The position numbers and the translations under genes were made by a program. Shown in pieces: positions 40,965 through 46,853 of a stretch of 64,000 bases of DNA (position 1 is the stretch's first letter; each line of letters begins with the position of its first letter). The DNA is from Frankia torreyi (GTDB lineage Bacteria > Actinomycetota > Actinomycetes > Frankiales > Frankiaceae). The stretch is taken from NCBI RefSeq assembly GCF_000948395.1, contig NZ_JYFN01000002.1, forward strand, positions 21,694-85,693. Reading direction: 5' to 3'. Below the pieces are notes generated by a model. It had not been told where the DNA came from. It did not search any database and was given only the letters and a program-made list of their open reading frames with translations.

Positions 40965-41095
40965 TGCCGGGTCCGGGTACCGCCAGGTGTCCTCCGTGAT
41001 CCTCGCCGGTCGGCGGCCCGTCGGCGGTGGCCCGCCGAGTTGCTGGAGGGTGGCGACGGTTCCAGTCCCGTGAACGGGGCGCCCCGCCCGCGGGG

Positions 41096-41214
41096 ATCGG
41101 ACGTCGGCGAAGATGGGATGTCGGCGAGGATGGGATGTCGGCGAGGATGGGATGTCGGCGAGGATGGGATGTCGGCGGGGATGGGACGTCGGCAGAGAGG
41201 GAACGTCGGCGGAG
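41096..41214. repeat. 17-bp tandem repeat, seven copies
   Basis: The unit ATGGGATGTCGGCGAGG occurs three times exactly, flanked by four variants (one before, three after) that keep the GTCGGC core. The array ends 13 bases before the GTG of the XdhC-like gene and leads directly into its GAGAGGGGCGG ribosome-binding region, so copy number may alter the leader. Confidence 0.92.
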
Positions 41215-41227
41215 AGGGGCGGCGCCG

Positions 41228-42535
41228 GTGCGCGAGATCGCCGACGCGCTGCGGCGATGGCGGGCCGAGGGCGGCGCGTTCGCGGTGGCGACCGTCGTCG
41301 GGGTGCAGGGCAGCGCGCCCCGCCAGCCCGGCGCCGCCATGGCCGTCGCCGCCGGCGGGGAGGTCGTCGGCAGCGTGTCCGGCGGCTGCGTCGAGGGTGC
41401 GGTCTACGAGGCCGCGGCCGAGGCGATCCGCACCGGCGTGCCCGTCCTGGAGAGCTACGGCATCTCCGACGACGACGCCTTCGCCGTCGGCCTGACCTGC
41501 GGCGGGACCATTGACCTGATCATCGTCCCGTACCCGGCCCGCGGGCCGTCCGCGGGCACGGGCGCGCGGGGCGCGGGCGGCGTGCTCGACGCGGTCCTCG
41601 CCGCGCTGGCCGCCGACGACGCGGTGGCGCTGCTGACCGTCGTCGGGGGAGGCAGGTTGGGTGGGCAGGTGGCGGTGTGGCCCGATCGCACCGTGGGTTC
41701 GTCCGGGGTCGCCGGTCTCGACGTCGCCGCGGTGGACGATGCCCGCGGGCTGCTGGCGGCCGGTCGCAGCGGGCTGCGCCGTTACGGGCCGCAGGGGCAG
41801 CGGCGGCCGGACGCGATCGGCGTGTTCGTCCAGTCGTTCGCCCCACCGCCGCGGATGCTGGTCTTCGGCGCGATCGACTACGCCGCCGCGGTGGTGCGGT
41901 TGGGCCGCTTTCTCGGCTACCGGGTGACGGTGTGTGACGCCCGGCCGGTGTTCGCCACCGCGCGGCGCTTCCCCGACGCCGACGAGGTCGTCTGCGAACG
42001 CCCGGTGGCCTTCCTCGACCGTGCGGCGGTCGACGCTCGCACGGTGATCTGCGTGCTCACCCACGATCCCAAGTTCGACATCCCGGTGCTGCGCGCCGCG
42101 CTGCGCTCCCCGGCGCACTACGTCGGCGCGATGGGGTCGCGGCGCACCCACGCCGACCGGCTGCGTCGGCTGCGTGCCAGCGGCGTCGCCGAGGACGACC
42201 TCGCGCGGCTGCACTCCCCGATCGGCCTGGACCTGGGCTCGCGCACGCCCGAGGAGACGGCCGTCTCGATCGCCGCGGAGATCATCCAGAGTCGCTGGGG
42301 TGGCAGCGGCCGCCCGCTGCGGGCCACCCGCGGTCGCATCCACGCCGACCCCGGCGAGCCGTCCAAGCCGTCCGAGCAGGCTGGGCCGTCCGAGCAGGCT
42401 GGGCCGTCCGAGCAGGCTGGGCCGTCCGAGCAGGCTGGGCCGTCCGAGCAGGCTGGGCCGTCCGAGCCGTCGGCGGACCCGGTCGCGCCGAATCCGGCGG
42501 ACGCACCGAGCGCCCCGGCCAGACCGGACGGCTGA
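41228..42535 (+). CDS. XdhC/CoxI family protein
   Basis: A 435-residue protein related to the XdhC/CoxI chaperones that insert sulphurated molybdenum cofactor into xanthine or CO dehydrogenases. N-terminal XdhC/CoxI domain: TVVGVQGSAPRQPGAAMAV, GSVSGGCVEGAVYEAAAEAI and GLTCGGTIDLIIVP, containing the conserved Cys that handles sulphur. The C-terminal Rossmann part has FGAIDYAAAVVRLGRFLGY, CVLTHDPKFDIPVL and YVGAMGSRRTHADRLRRL. The last 55 residues are a GPSEQA repeat tail not found in typical members. No molybdenum hydroxylase genes are adjacent. The link to the modA gene at the window edge is only thematic. Confidence 0.9.
   Translation: MREIADALRRWRAEGGAFAVATVVGVQGSAPRQPGAAMAVAAGGEVVGSVSGGCVEGAVYEAAAEAIRTGVPVLESYGISDDDAFAVGLTCGGTIDLIIVPYPARGPSAGTGARGAGGVLDAVLAALAADDAVALLTVVGGGRLGGQVAVWPDRTVGSSGVAGLDVAAVDDARGLLAAGRSGLRRYGPQGQRRPDAIGVFVQSFAPPPRMLVFGAIDYAAAVVRLGRFLGYRVTVCDARPVFATARRFPDADEVVCERPVAFLDRAAVDARTVICVLTHDPKFDIPVLRAALRSPAHYVGAMGSRRTHADRLRRLRASGVAEDDLARLHSPIGLDLGSRTPEETAVSIAAEIIQSRWGGSGRPLRATRGRIHADPGEPSKPSEQAGPSEQAGPSEQAGPSEQAGPSEQAGPSEPSADPVAPNPADAPSAPARPDG
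42371..42460 (+). repeat. 18-bp tandem repeat, five perfect copies, coding
   Basis: The unit TCCGAGCAGGCTGGGCCG encodes the SEQAGP hexapeptide five times in the tail of the XdhC-like protein. Copies are identical at base level, implying recent expansion. Confidence 0.95.
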
Positions 42536-42652
42536 GTGAGGGCCGTGGCCGTGGGGCCTGATCGGAGCTCGGGTGCCTGGTGGCCTCGAGGCTCGGGCGC
42601 TCGCTGGCCGTACCACCTGCCTTGTATCGTTCTGTGATCGTCTATGCACAGA

Positions 42653-42713
42653 ATCGTGCCGAGGGGTAGGTACGGTTTTTAGCCGAAAAACCGTACACAG
42701 GCCTCGGCATGAT
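42653..42713. repeat. Dispersed palindromic element, copy B
   Basis: Outer arms ATCGTGCCGAGG and CCTCGGCATGAT pair with one mismatch. The inner stem TACGGTTTTT (42671-42680) pairs perfectly with 42686-42695 around a 5-base loop. The whole could fold into a long two-part hairpin. Copy A lies at 14641-14702. Confidence 0.8.
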
Positions 42714-42739
42714 GTGGCCTCAATATGGCCGACACTCGG

Positions 42740-42803
42740 CTGACGGGCTGACGGGCTGACGGGCTGACGGGCTGACGGGCTGACGGGCTGACGGGCTGAC
42801 GGC
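42740..42803. repeat. 8-bp tandem repeat, eight copies
   Basis: The unit CTGACGGG is repeated seven times perfectly plus one copy ending CTGACGGC. It is intergenic and its unit is not a multiple of three. Confidence 0.95.
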
Positions 42804-43082
42804 GGTGGTGCGGCGTGGCGTGGTTCCGCCGGACATCATGATCGCCTGGGTTGGGTGGCGGGAGCGCGGTTCCGCGGAACCCCATGATCGTCGCCCTGTG
42901 TGACCGGATTTCGCGGTGGCTGGGTAGCCCCCGGGCGGTCACCGGGGAGCTCCGCCGCACGGGGGCATCGGGGCCCTTCGGGCCGGCCGGGAGCCCCACG
43001 GTCGTGGCGGGGGATGGGGCCCGACCTGGGTGTTTGCGTATCGCGATGGGTGGCGGCCGTCACTGGGGCGCTCCCCGCGTCG

Positions 43083-43121
43083 GTGAACCGGCGTTCACTA
43101 TGCTGGTGAACGTCGGTTCAC
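43083..43121. promoter_or_regulatory. Double TetR-type operator upstream of MFS gene
   Basis: Two 16-bp palindromes, GTGAACCGGCGTTCAC and GTGAACGTCGGTTCAC, share the form GTGAAC-N4-GTTCAC and are separated by 7 bases (centre to centre 23 bp). They lie 58 bases before the GTG of the MFS transporter. The TetR gene just downstream of the transporter is the likely binding partner. Confidence 0.75.
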
Positions 43122-43178
43122 CGCAAGGTGGCCGAATCTGTTCCGATCATGTCCTGTCTCGATCAGTCAAGGAGTCAC

Positions 43179-44732
43179 GTGGGCGAGCCTGCCGTGCATC
43201 CGGTCCGCGCCGTGTCCGCGGGGGAGGCCCCCGCGGGGGGACGTTCCCGGGAGCTCAGCGCCGTGCTGGGCGTCGGCGGCATCCTCACCGCGATCTCGCA
43301 GGTCTCGATCGTGCCGCTGCTGCCCGACCTGCCCCGGCTCACCGGCGCGTCGGCGTCGAACGTGAGCTGGCTACTCACCGTCACCCTGCTCGTCGGTGCC
43401 GTGGTCACGCCGCTGTTCGGCCGGGCGGGCGACATCTTCGGCAAGCGGCGGATGCTGCTGGTCGCGCTCGGGATGCTGACCACCGGGTCGGTCCTGTGCG
43501 CGCTGACGTCGAACATCTGGCTGCTGATCCCGGCCCGCGGACTGCAGGGAGCCTGCCTTGCGGTGGTGCCGCTGTCGATCAGCATCCTGCGCGACGAGCT
43601 CCCCCCCGAGCGGGTGGGGTCGGCGGTCGCGCTGATGAGCGCCACCGTCGGCATCGGCGCGGCGCTCGGCGTCCCGTTCGCCTCCCTGATCATCCAGTTC
43701 GCCGACTGGCACGTGATGTTCTGGGTCACCGGTGGGCTCGGCCTGGCCGATCTGATCCTCGCCGGGCTGCTCGTGCGCGAGTCGAAGGTCCGCGCCCCCG
43801 CCCGCTTCGACATCCCCGGCGCGGTCGGGCTGGCCCTCGGCCTGCTGTGCCTGCTGCTGGCGCTGTCCAAGGCGGCCGACTGGGGCTTCACCAGCCCGCG
43901 CTTCGGCGGACTGATCCTCGCCGCCGTGGTGATCTTCGTCGGCTGGGCCCGCTGGCAGTTGCGGGTCGCCGACCCGCTGGTCGACCTGCGTCTGGCGCGG
44001 CGGCCCGCGGTGCTCGCCCCGAACGCCGCGGCGCTGCTGATCGGCTTCTCGTTCTACGCCAACTCGCTGTCCACCGCCCAGCTCGTCCAGGTCCCGAAGG
44101 AGACCGGCTACGGCCTGGGCCTGTCGGTGTTCGCCAGCGGCCTGTGCCTGCTGCCCGGCGGCGTGGCGATGTTCGCTCTGTCGCCGGTCGCGGCGCGGAT
44201 CACCGCCTCCCGCGGCCCACGGATCACTCTGCTGCTCGGCGCGTCCGCGCTCGTGTTCGGCTACCTGCTACGCATGTTCACCAGCGAGAATCTACCGATG
44301 ATCGTGGTGGGTGCGGCGGTGGTCGCCGCCGGGACGGCGCTGGCCTACTCGGCCATGCCGATGCTGATTATGAACGCGGTTCCCCGCACCCAGACGGCCG
44401 CCGCCAACGGCCTCAACGTCCTGCTGCGCACGGTCGGGCAGGCGATGTGCAGCGCCGCCGTCGCCGCGCTGCTCAGCCACCTCACGATGACGACCTCCGG
44501 CGGGGCGGTGCCGAGCCTCGGCGCCTTCCAGACCGTCTTCGCGATGGCCGGCGTGGTGGGGGCGCTCGCTCTCGGGGTGGGCTGCCTCGTGCCTACCCGT
44601 GACCGGGTCGACACGGATGTGCCGGTGCAGCCCGGTGATCCGGCCCGGACCATGCACGCGGCTGGCGACGACGGTGGCCGGCTGGCGGAGTCCGTCTCGG
44701 CCGCGCCGACCCCGGTCACCACCACACGCTGA
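43179..44732 (+). CDS. MFS transporter, DHA2-like drug-efflux type
   Basis: A 517-residue exporter with about 14 transmembrane helices. After a short polar N-terminus the first helix reads VLGVGGILTAISQVSIVPLL. The motif-A loop is LFGRAGDIFGKRRMLLVALG, closely matching the MFS consensus GxxxDRxGRRR. Helix 4-5 has PARGLQGACLAVVPLSISIL and GIGAALGVPFASLIIQFADW. The C-terminus carries a 50-residue hydrophilic tail. GTG 43179 is chosen because AAGGAG stands six bases before it. A TetR gene follows on the same strand and a double operator precedes it, so expression is probably induced by the exported compound. Confidence 0.91.
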   Translation: MGEPAVHPVRAVSAGEAPAGGRSRELSAVLGVGGILTAISQVSIVPLLPDLPRLTGASASNVSWLLTVTLLVGAVVTPLFGRAGDIFGKRRMLLVALGMLTTGSVLCALTSNIWLLIPARGLQGACLAVVPLSISILRDELPPERVGSAVALMSATVGIGAALGVPFASLIIQFADWHVMFWVTGGLGLADLILAGLLVRESKVRAPARFDIPGAVGLALGLLCLLLALSKAADWGFTSPRFGGLILAAVVIFVGWARWQLRVADPLVDLRLARRPAVLAPNAAALLIGFSFYANSLSTAQLVQVPKETGYGLGLSVFASGLCLLPGGVAMFALSPVAARITASRGPRITLLLGASALVFGYLLRMFTSENLPMIVVGAAVVAAGTALAYSAMPMLIMNAVPRTQTAAANGLNVLLRTVGQAMCSAAVAALLSHLTMTTSGGAVPSLGAFQTVFAMAGVVGALALGVGCLVPTRDRVDTDVPVQPGDPARTMHAAGDDGGRLAESVSAAPTPVTTTR

Positions 44733-44799
44733 CCACGTACCAGGATCCGGGCAGCGGGATCCGGGCAGCAGGGTCCCGGCGACGGCGCGAGCCGACACG

Positions 44800-44841
44800 G
44801 CCAGGGCTGCGTGGCCAGGGCTGCGTGGCCAGGGCTGCGTG
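44800..44841. repeat. 14-bp tandem repeat, three copies
   Basis: GCCAGGGCTGCGTG is repeated three times between the MFS and TetR genes. Confidence 0.9.
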
Positions 44842-44978
44842 GTGAGGATGCGGCAGCCGGGGAGGACCCGACGGTGCCGGGGCGGGCACGGTGCGGCGCC
44901 GGTGAGCGGTAGCGTGCAGGCTCGGGCGTCCCGGTTGGGGACGTCCGGCGCATCCCGGGACGGGCGGAGGAGCGGACC

Positions 44979-45764
44979 ATGACGAGCCCTTCGACCACCA
45001 CCCGCGGACGGCCGGCAGGGCCGGAGTCCAGCAGCCCTGCCGGGGCCGACTCCGCCCGCCCTGACACTGGCCGTTCGGATGCCGGCCAGCACGAGACGTC
45101 CCACTCCCATCCCGGCCGGGTCGCCCCGCAGTCCGCGGTCGCCGTCCTGGCTGGGTCCGATGCCGTCCCGGGTGGGGTCGCGCCGACGGGGGCGGCGGGC
45201 GGCGGGCGGGGCCGGATGCGGGGGGACGCCGAGGTCAGCCGCGAGGCGATCATCGCCGCGGCCCGCCGGGCGTTCGCCCGCCAGCCCTACGCCGCCATCA
45301 CGCTCAAGGCGATCGCGGCGGACGCCGGGGTGAGTGCTCCGCTGGTGCTGAAGTACTTCGGCAGCAAGGAGCAGCTCTTCGCGCGGGTCGCCCGCTTCGG
45401 CGACGAGATCGACCAGTTGCTCGACGCGCCGCTGCCCGACCTCGGCCGCCACCTGCTGCACGCCCTGCTCGACGCGCACGAGCAGCGCCGCGATCCGCTC
45501 ATCCGGGTCGCGTTCGCGCTCCAGCACGGCGAGCACGCGACCCTGCTGCGCGACAACTTCCGCGACCAGGTCGTCGCCCGGCTGCGCTCGCGTCTGACCG
45601 GCCCGGATGCGGCCCTGCGCGCCGAGCTCGTCCTCGCCCACCTGCTCGGCCTCGGTGTCCTGCGCAAGATCGTGCATACCGAGGCGATCAGCGCCGCCGA
45701 ACGCGACCGGATCGTCGACCTGTGCGCGCCCGGCCTGCAACGCCTCCTCGACGGCAGCCCCTGA
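44979..45764 (+). CDS. TetR family transcriptional regulator
   Basis: A 261-residue regulator. The first 80 residues are a Ser/Pro/Gly-rich extension. Then comes the helix-turn-helix: SREAIIAAARRAFARQPYAA, LKAIAADAGVSAPLVLKYFG and KEQLFARVARF. The C-terminal segment RRDPLIRVAFALQHGEHATL and ELVLAHLLGLGVLRKIVH resembles the TetR_C_17 type domain. ATG has a strong CGGAGGAG ribosome site. It lies 246 bases after the MFS gene. The double GTGAAC palindrome ahead of that gene is the best candidate operator. Confidence 0.9.
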   Translation: MTSPSTTTRGRPAGPESSSPAGADSARPDTGRSDAGQHETSHSHPGRVAPQSAVAVLAGSDAVPGGVAPTGAAGGGRGRMRGDAEVSREAIIAAARRAFARQPYAAITLKAIAADAGVSAPLVLKYFGSKEQLFARVARFGDEIDQLLDAPLPDLGRHLLHALLDAHEQRRDPLIRVAFALQHGEHATLLRDNFRDQVVARLRSRLTGPDAALRAELVLAHLLGLGVLRKIVHTEAISAAERDRIVDLCAPGLQRLLDGSP

Positions 45765-45798
45765 CGATCTCCGCCTCGGCCTGACCGCCTCCGGCGCA

Positions 45799-45844
45799 AT
45801 CAAGATAATCAACACTGTTGACAGCTCGCCGCCATCCATGATCA
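45799..45844. repeat. Conserved element in a convergent gap, copy 1
   Basis: It begins ATCAAGATAATCAAC, contains the palindrome TCAACACTGTTGA and TTGACAGC, and ends ATGATCA. The same order and spacing recur at 52471-52517. It lies between the 3' ends of a TetR gene and an SDR gene. Confidence 0.7.
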
Positions 45845-45884
45845 CAAAAGATGGGCTGATCCTCAGCACCGGCGCCGGGCCGGC

Positions 45885-46853
45885 TCAGCCGCGGGCCGGC
45901 GCGTCGCGCGGGGGACGGTCTCCGGTGAGGTCGGCGTTCGGGGCGGCGGCGCGGACCAGGTCGGGGATGACCTCGCCGAGCGCGCCCGGTTCCCAGACGC
46001 CGTCGACGTCGACGGCCGGTCCGTTGGCCCATCCCTCCAGCACGGTGATCCGACCGCCGACGACCGCGAACACCCGCCCGGTCACGCCAGCCGACGCCTC
46101 GCTGCCCAGCCAGACCACCAGCGGCGCGATGTGCTCGGCGCTCATCCCCGCCGCCTGCGCCTCGGTTAGGTCGCCGGTGAGGCCCTCGGTCAGCCGGGTC
46201 AGTGCGAGCGGGGCGATCGCGTTCACCGTCACCCCGTAGCGGGCGAGCTCCAGCGCGGCGGTCACGGTGAACCCGGCGATGGCGGCCTTGGCGGCGCCGT
46301 AGTTCGTCTGGCCGATGTTGCCGAACAACCCCGACGGCGAGCTGGTGTTGACGACCCGGGCCGACCGTCCGCGCCCGGCCCGGTGCTCGTCGCGCCAGTA
46401 GACGCCCGCGTGGTGGGTCGGGGCGAAGGTGCCCTTGAGATGCACCCGCACGACCGCGTCCCACTCCGCCTCGGTCATGTTGACCAGGGTGCGGTCGCGC
46501 AGAATCCCGGCGTTGTTCACCAGGACGTCCAGCCCCCCGAACGCCTCGATCGCCTGGGCGACGAGGCGCCCGGCCCCGGCGAAGTCGGCGACGTCGTCGG
46601 TGTTCGCCACCGCCTGCCCGCCGGCCGCCCGGATCTGCTCGACCACGGCGGCCGCGGGCCCGCCGTCGCGGCCGCGGCCGGCCCGGTCACCGCCGACGTC
46701 GTTGACGACCACCCGGGCGCCCTCGGCGGCGAACGCCAGCGCGTGCGCCCGCCCGATCCCGTTGCCGGCCCCCGTGACGATGACCACCCGACCCGCGCAC
46801 AGACCCCGCACGGGGCCACCCCCTGTCCTTCGCCCTCGGCGGATGTCCTTCAC
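45885..46853 (-). CDS. Short-chain dehydrogenase/reductase (SDR)
   Basis: A 322-residue NAD(P)-dependent oxidoreductase. The cofactor motif is VTGAGNGIG (TGxxxGxG), NNAG occurs in LVNNAGILRDRTL, the catalytic Ser is in NTSSPSG and Tyr/Lys in YGAAK. It resembles the dehydrogenase domain of multifunctional beta-oxidation enzymes in the TEAEWDAVVRVHLKGTF block, with a C-terminal extension of about 50 residues. GTG 46853 is favoured by GGAGG upstream. It is the last gene of a minus-strand set with a PPOX protein and a luciferase-like oxidoreductase. A hydroxyacyl-CoA or steroid/alcohol substrate is plausible. Confidence 0.9.
   Translation of the reverse strand: MKDIRRGRRTGGGPVRGLCAGRVVIVTGAGNGIGRAHALAFAAEGARVVVNDVGGDRAGRGRDGGPAAAVVEQIRAAGGQAVANTDDVADFAGAGRLVAQAIEAFGGLDVLVNNAGILRDRTLVNMTEAEWDAVVRVHLKGTFAPTHHAGVYWRDEHRAGRGRSARVVNTSSPSGLFGNIGQTNYGAAKAAIAGFTVTAALELARYGVTVNAIAPLALTRLTEGLTGDLTEAQAAGMSAEHIAPLVVWLGSEASAGVTGRVFAVVGGRITVLEGWANGPAVDVDGVWEPGALGEVIPDLVRAAAPNADLTGDRPPRDAPARG

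Follow-up and report, generated by a model that had tools for sequence, protein, structure and literature searches.

Two adjacent perfect palindromes ahead of a predicted exporter gene of Frankia torreyi are very probably (about 0.88 by our estimate, from comparative sequence analysis) twin operators of the TetR-family regulator encoded behind the exporter, which would repress it by promoter occlusion, and the corresponding pairs of Streptomyces would be evolving as one inverted repeat. The window, by which we mean the whole 64,000-nucleotide stretch of contig NZ_JYFN01000002.1 analysed here, holds the following features at this locus:

43083-43098, no strand assigned: predicted operator O1, GTGAACCGGCGTTCAC, that is GTGAAC-CGGC-GTTCAC, found by exact search, with arms invariant in five Frankia genomes.
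43099-43105, plus strand: the gap TATGCTG between O1 and O2, 7 bp, with 6 of its 7 bases invariant across the five Frankia genomes.
43106-43121, no strand assigned: predicted operator O2, GTGAACGTCGGTTCAC, that is GTGAAC-GTCG-GTTCAC, found by exact search, with arms invariant in the same five genomes.
43083-43121, no strand assigned: the 39-bp element made of O1, gap and O2, an inverted repeat.
43179-44732, plus strand: DHA2-like MFS exporter of 517 aa, with a probable GTG start and AAGGAG just upstream.
44979-45764, plus strand: TetR-family regulator of 261 aa with TetR_N and TetR_C_16 domains, the candidate repressor.

The exporter matched the MFS_1 profile at 2e-48 with 165.6 bits (cut-off 33.4) and TIGR00711 (efflux_EmrB) with 145.2 bits, under its curated cut-off of 230.2; it resembles DHA2 efflux proteins, and drugs are its probable, predicted substrates. 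The regulator gene follows after 246 bp in the Frankia window, and both of its domains exceed the gathering score (PF00440 at 9.4e-15 and PF17920 at 8.2e-24). About 70 N-terminal residues of the 261 form a variable extension. The ortholog of Frankia sp. AiPs1 (...VTSPSTLGRRGDAEVS) aligns by eye with the start of the 261-residue reading while lacking most of the extension, which makes this start plausible and the extension a variable insert. Orthologs with 95-97% identity were found in Frankia sp. QA3, Frankia sp. AiPs1, F. gtarii and F. tisae. The closest solved sequence is that of 2GUH, a putative TetR-family regulator (E 2e-32 over query residues 78-260), with a nearly identical recognition helix (SAPLIIKYFGSKEQLF).

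As the sequence-only reading had described, both 16-mers have the form GTGAAC-N4-GTTCAC with a start-to-start distance of 23 bp. The search for a regulon that it proposed was carried out over 7,624,758 bases in 153 contigs of the F. torreyi genome and returned exactly two sites, both at 43083-43121 of the window, with 0 matches of the reversed control pattern across the same bases; by the measure of this exact pattern, then, the regulator seems to act locally and not to govern a wider regulon. The expected number of exact sites per genome was 0.10 with a base model and 0.16 with a dinucleotide model, both derived from the composition of the window. Chance palindromes would be compatible with a looser count, as three matches with up to two mismatches were found in the window alone, and 14 of 100 shuffles also reach three. 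This count being unremarkable, the case for the element rests on exactness, pairing and conservation, and here chance is practically refuted, both by two exact sites 23 bp apart against the 0.10 to 0.16 expected genome-wide and by the conservation of the pair in relatives, where the control gives 0.

The suggestion that two repressor dimers could bind on nearly the same DNA face is not supported. The 23 bp correspond to 2.19 turns, around 69 degrees off. With 10.5 bp per turn, the spacings at MFS-TetR loci of Frankia, Streptomyces, Prauserella and Kribbella, 22-26 bp overall, are out of alignment by around 34 to 171 degrees, so that a strict same-face placement is not conserved among these loci.

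The pair and the regulator occur together in the genus. An ortholog of the TetR was detected in seven of 13 Frankia genomes (G000, G002, G003, G006, G009, G010 and G012), and the exact pair with its 23-bp spacing in five of the 13, all five among those seven. In the alignment of the pair-bearing genomes, invariance is complete across the arms (24 of 24 bases) and falls to 47 of 100 in the upstream stretch and 17 of 57 in the leader, O2 ending 57 bp before the exporter start. Of the two remaining genomes, G009 counts against the reading, with one exact site and a second that is at most degenerate despite its MFS and TetR hits, and the promoter of G010 is unreadable because the contig begins within the TetR gene. 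In G002 the assembly is broken between exporter and regulator: the contig with the pair and the exporter stops short of where the TetR would lie, and the TetR ortholog is found at the start of a different contig. Three exporter orthologs (G004, G001 and G005; 64-76% identity) have no TetR hit alongside, and 0 of the 3 has a site with up to two mismatches in the fetched loci. This co-occurrence, the missing sites where no TetR adjoins, and the related sites found with related TetRs (below) strongly support the proposal that the likely regulator is the one encoded behind the exporter. Single exact sites also occur elsewhere (G005, G013, G014, G022, G026, G032 and G038).

The distribution was followed beyond Frankia. 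In a class-wide sample of 393 genomes, 11 have the exact pair, and a relaxed pair (GTRAAY-N4-RTTYAC twice) was detected in 23, with 24 pairs; the controls gave 0 in both cases, and the spacing was always 23-25 bp in a scan that allowed 18-30. The gene after the pair is an MFS relative in 20 of the 24 cases and another gene in four, so the prospect of sites placed before unrelated genes only, which would have spoken against the assignment, is not borne out. Three of the pairs precede an ORF for an ABM-type monooxygenase followed by a different TetR, and one lies between a divergent TetR and a FAD monooxygenase ORF. A TetR gene adjoins 23 of the 24 pairs, the exception being the broken contig of G002, with the reading that several gene types and one TetR of these loci were assigned by eye from translations, and that genes in all fetched loci are ORFs and tblastn hits rather than annotations. 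At MFS-TetR loci, pairs in which one site or both deviate by a single mismatch were found in Prauserella endophytica, P. flavalba, Kribbella sp. VKM Ac-2568 and Streptomyces sp. SID13031. For the TetR relatives of Prauserella cavernicola (L064) and Kribbella ALI-6-A (L067), the fetched stretch showed no hit to this exporter and no site with up to two mismatches. The exact GTGAAC pair was also present in 6 of 40 genomes of the genus of G128 and in 3 of 12 of the genus of G073, with controls of 0. At the ABM-type loci L069, L070 and L071 (3 of 12 genomes of one genus), GTGAAC twin sites spaced 24-25 bp stand before the monooxygenase ORF and the different TetR, and these loci apparently represent a second TetR group sharing the GTGAAC code.

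The largest set of pairs came from Streptomyces, where GTGAAY-N4-RTTCAC was found twice in 75 of 392 genomes, with a control of 0. The 77 pairs used (75 of the 76 scan pairs, the one of G489 being left unlisted, plus two from the class sample) are spaced 23 or 24 bp only, 20-30 being allowed in the scan. An exporter relative lies downstream of the pair on one strand in 73 of the 77 fetched loci, and 69 of these have a same-strand TetR hit, the other four being at contig ends or rearranged. The recognition helix follows L-x-x-K-[YHL]-[FY] in 68 of the 69 Streptomyces rows of the aligned MFS-locus TetRs, the 69th having no residues at this place, and in the 11 others shown. Three loci that appear rearranged retain the operator pair: in L197 an ORF joins the N-terminus of the exporter to a C-terminus that resembles TetR, in L202 a TnpB-like ORF stands where the TetR is expected, and in L179 the exporter hit is out of place relative to the operators. 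Of the four pairs away from MFS genes, two are at a divergent TetR and FAD-monooxygenase and two precede an ATPase-like ORF with no TetR seen. In the latter (L190 and L207), the GTGAAT-type pair overlaps the predicted start of this ORF, and a LacI-type regulator and a DapA-like ORF are nearby; the N4 centres of the L190 pair are fully complementary.

The association was also found starting from the regulator. A TetR relative (E <= 1e-35) was detected in 43 of 121 Streptomyces genomes, and 38 of the 42 that are readable have a pair. These comprise 23 exact pairs (that of G489 was not located, and that of G470 is on a different contig from the TetR hit), two one-mismatch pairs and 13 GTGCAC-type pairs, whereas four of the 43 have one intact site with a degenerate partner and one has a contig ending too early; degenerate pairs in the 20 genomes outside the exact class come from a loose search, with up to five mismatches and without a shuffle control. 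These variants suggest that related TetRs keep the architecture while the half-site drifts. At L245, L247, L249, L251-L258, L260 and L264 the outer half-sites are GTGCAC (GTGTAC once in two loci) and the inner ones GTTTAC or GTGAAC; L251 has an apparent third site, and in L255, where the fetched stretch shows no MFS relative, the pair is retained right before the TetR hit.

We considered that a repressor encoded elsewhere in the genome could use these sites, with the adjacent TetR as a bystander. The same type of pair stands beside different TetRs at the ABM-type loci, and the Streptomyces pairs away from MFS genes include two with no TetR in sight, as such a repressor would allow. We hold this to be very unlikely, since the sites track the adjacent TetR and are absent from all three Frankia exporter orthologs that have none, since a whole genome holds just two exact sites, and since the pair at L255 persists right before the TetR hit even where the MFS relative is not detected.

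Regarding the promoter, the gap contains TATGCT (43099-43104), a possible -10 hexamer that has no convincing -35; a consensus -35 is not apparent in the window, and a scan for the sigma-70 consensus over 42500-46000 reported nothing at the operator site. In the five pair-bearing Frankia genomes the gap starts with TATGCT or TATGGT, again with no clear -35. In the 73 Streptomyces loci a conserved T-A-n-G in the gap runs into the GT of O2 to give TAnGGT, by our assignment a fair -10, and T-T at -4/-3 before O1 (46 and 59 of 73, respectively) is compatible with a -35 overlapping O1. By eye, a -10-like TACnnT of Prauserella and Kribbella overlaps the inner arm of O1. The promoter element thus seems to move a few bases between lineages while the operator spacing stays within 22-26 bp.

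The simplest reading, and a likely one, is that bound dimers occlude the polymerase. Without ligand, a homodimer of the TetR encoded behind the exporter would sit on each of O1 and O2, covering the exporter promoter, whose -10 would fall within the gap or on its border, and because of this cover RNA polymerase could not load. A small molecule, probably a substrate of the MFS protein, would release the repressor. Overlapping MFS and TetR hits, such as those of Prauserella and Kribbella, point to co-transcription, and there the regulator would probably repress itself together with the exporter.

The two operators also appear related to each other through their centres. In F. torreyi the N4 centres CGGC (O1) and GTCG (O2) are reverse complements at three of four positions, and the 39-bp element as a single-stranded DNA hairpin has a folding energy of -17.2 kcal/mol (z -8.5). 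The N4 bases are little conserved, yet in Streptomyces, after collapsing identical pairs (77 to 69), 184 of 276 positions agree between the N4 of O1 and the reverse-complemented N4 of O2, against 115.9 +/- 6.8 when shuffled (maximum 140 in 5000 shuffles), and the centres are fully complementary in 28 of the 69 pairs, in 16 different combinations, against 3.2 when shuffled (maximum 11). For MFS loci in sense orientation (73 collapsed to 65, omitting the four Streptomyces and three ABM-type loci without an MFS hit) the match was 175 of 260 versus 112.4 +/- 6.2 (maximum 134 in 3000 shuffles), whereas direct identity of the centres, 86 of 260 versus 96.8 shuffled, was not enriched. The excess is confined to N4 and arm position 6 (z 4.5-6.5); in the Streptomyces MFS loci the outer flanks 1-12 gave z values of at most 1.9, and the gap edges were at or below chance, with one z of -3.2.

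Shared ancestry alone does not seem to account for this match. On an exporter tree of the 73 loci, 19 same-branch compensatory changes fall on the four correct pairings versus four in the 12 wrong ones, counts that are coarse as they come from Fitch parsimony on a single-gene tree. In 36 disjoint contrasts between near relatives (72 of the 73 loci, taken greedily by exporter identity, 78-100%), there are 17 compensatory double changes versus 2, 0 and 2 for shifted pairings; the same contrasts hold 39 one-sided and 11 other two-sided changes, the one-sided outnumbering the compensatory. Compensatory changes beyond shared ancestry were seen in the Streptomyces MFS loci only. Eight pairs from other lineages showed no excess (11 of 32 versus 11.5 shuffled), nor did the 13 GTGCAC-type loci, which were counted in both orientations as 26 rows (48 of 104 versus 50.2), and the four distinct Frankia pairs are too small a set for a verdict (13 of 16, with a shuffle mean of 11.5 and a maximum of 13).

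Several causes of the covariation were weighed. Independent dimers under selection for equal affinity were rejected: they predict as much direct as inverted matching, and only the inverted is enriched. Because a homodimer on a palindrome cannot distinguish an N4 from its reverse complement, independent symmetric binding fails to explain the inverted-only match. Self-symmetry of each N4 was likewise discarded, as its count, 91 of 260, is near the 86 of direct identity with which it was compared. That the inverted repeat acts as an RNA hairpin, within a leader or a read-through transcript, would agree with the strong fold of the 39-mer under RNA parameters (-28.9 kcal/mol); even so, we consider it most improbable, because sense-strand G-T combinations show no excess (36 versus 42 in shuffles), and transcription from this promoter, with its likely -10 in the loop, would start too late to include the first arm.

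The preferred and most economical candidate mechanism is template switching, a mutational process in which, at the GTGAAT-type loci of Streptomyces, one arm would be copied onto the other through a hairpin template. Template switching is described as homogenising short inverted repeats, one arm serving as template for the other, in the available parts of PMC8794818 and PMC8604942; the cases in these excerpts are RNA genes and coding DNA of yeast, whereas the arms here are predicted repressor operators. We tentatively propose, at somewhat less than even odds, that closely spaced twin operators evolve in concert in this way, with hairpin-templated rewriting keeping the arms identical while the centres drift as reverse complements.

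Selection on the whole symmetric element, either by touching dimers that read outer and inner half-sites differently or through a functional cruciform, could produce the same covariation without any such mutation. That the match is inverted and not direct would suit it, as would the sharp borders of the excess and the confinement of GTGCAC or GTGTAC to outer half-sites at the GTGCAC-type loci. On the other hand, a fixed protein preference should lead to fixed bases, and not to 16 fully complementary combinations, and there is no sign of extended pairing in the gap or flanks. We regard such selection as rather unlikely, though a serious competitor of template switching.

Twin or multiple operators of TetR-family proteins and dimer-of-dimers binders are already well known, as the consulted sections of PMC3511530 and PMC4150764 indicate, and the predicted pair of the window adds a new member to this kind. 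The Tn10 TetR with tetO1 and tetO2 is alike in that a TetR dimer binds two palindromic operators of 15 bp close to an efflux gene (excerpt of PMC3511530), and unlike in that tetR diverges from tetA with the operators between them, whereas in Frankia the TetR gene follows the exporter in the same orientation, with the two sites ahead of the exporter. According to PMC3511530, the SCO7222/SCO7223 region of Streptomyces coelicolor carries three near-identical perfect TGGAACGNCGTTCCA repeats served by one TetR-family regulator and footprinted in vitro. There the genes are divergent, the half-site is TGGAAC with N3 instead of GTGAAC with N4, and three sites are spread across intergenic DNA instead of forming a fixed twin element. 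QacR, CgmR, Ms6564 and CprB also place two TetR dimers on each control element as a 'dimer of dimers', with cooperative binding reported for QacR and CprB, and they bind one sequence of 22-32 bp (available text of PMC4150764); the 39-bp element consists of two separate complete 16-bp palindromes with a 7-bp gap. In the accessible text of PMC6921075, the one listed paper to mention GTGAAC along with the TetR family, operators and palindromes, this hexamer appears only in a primer. The variant part is the conserved same-strand arrangement, the near-fixed spacing and the concerted centres; neither this operator pair nor covarying centres are described among the matches listed, which mostly do not cover subscription papers.

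These pairs provide a testable operator code for an exporter-repressor family of Frankia, Streptomyces and other actinobacteria, with GTGAAC, GTGAAT or GTGCAC variants at 22-26 bp. If the covariation is mutational, template switching would have left a natural trace in the regulatory DNA of the Streptomyces loci, and caution would be due more generally: compensation between the arms of an inverted repeat would not by itself be evidence of a functional RNA or DNA structure. If concerted evolution is true, template switching during replication would help to create and maintain the symmetry of twin operators at promoters.

Further sequence features were noticed upstream of the operators. At 43010-43062, a block (GATGGGGCC..ACCTG, GTATC.CG.TGGGTG.CGG) is well conserved in the five aligned Frankia genomes. 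An 8-bp unit, ctgacggg, stands in around eight head-to-tail copies (by eye) at 42740-42803, ahead of the promoter region. The upstream neighbour is an XdhC-family ORF (41027-42535), with GPSEQA-type repeats near its end and further repeats near its start.
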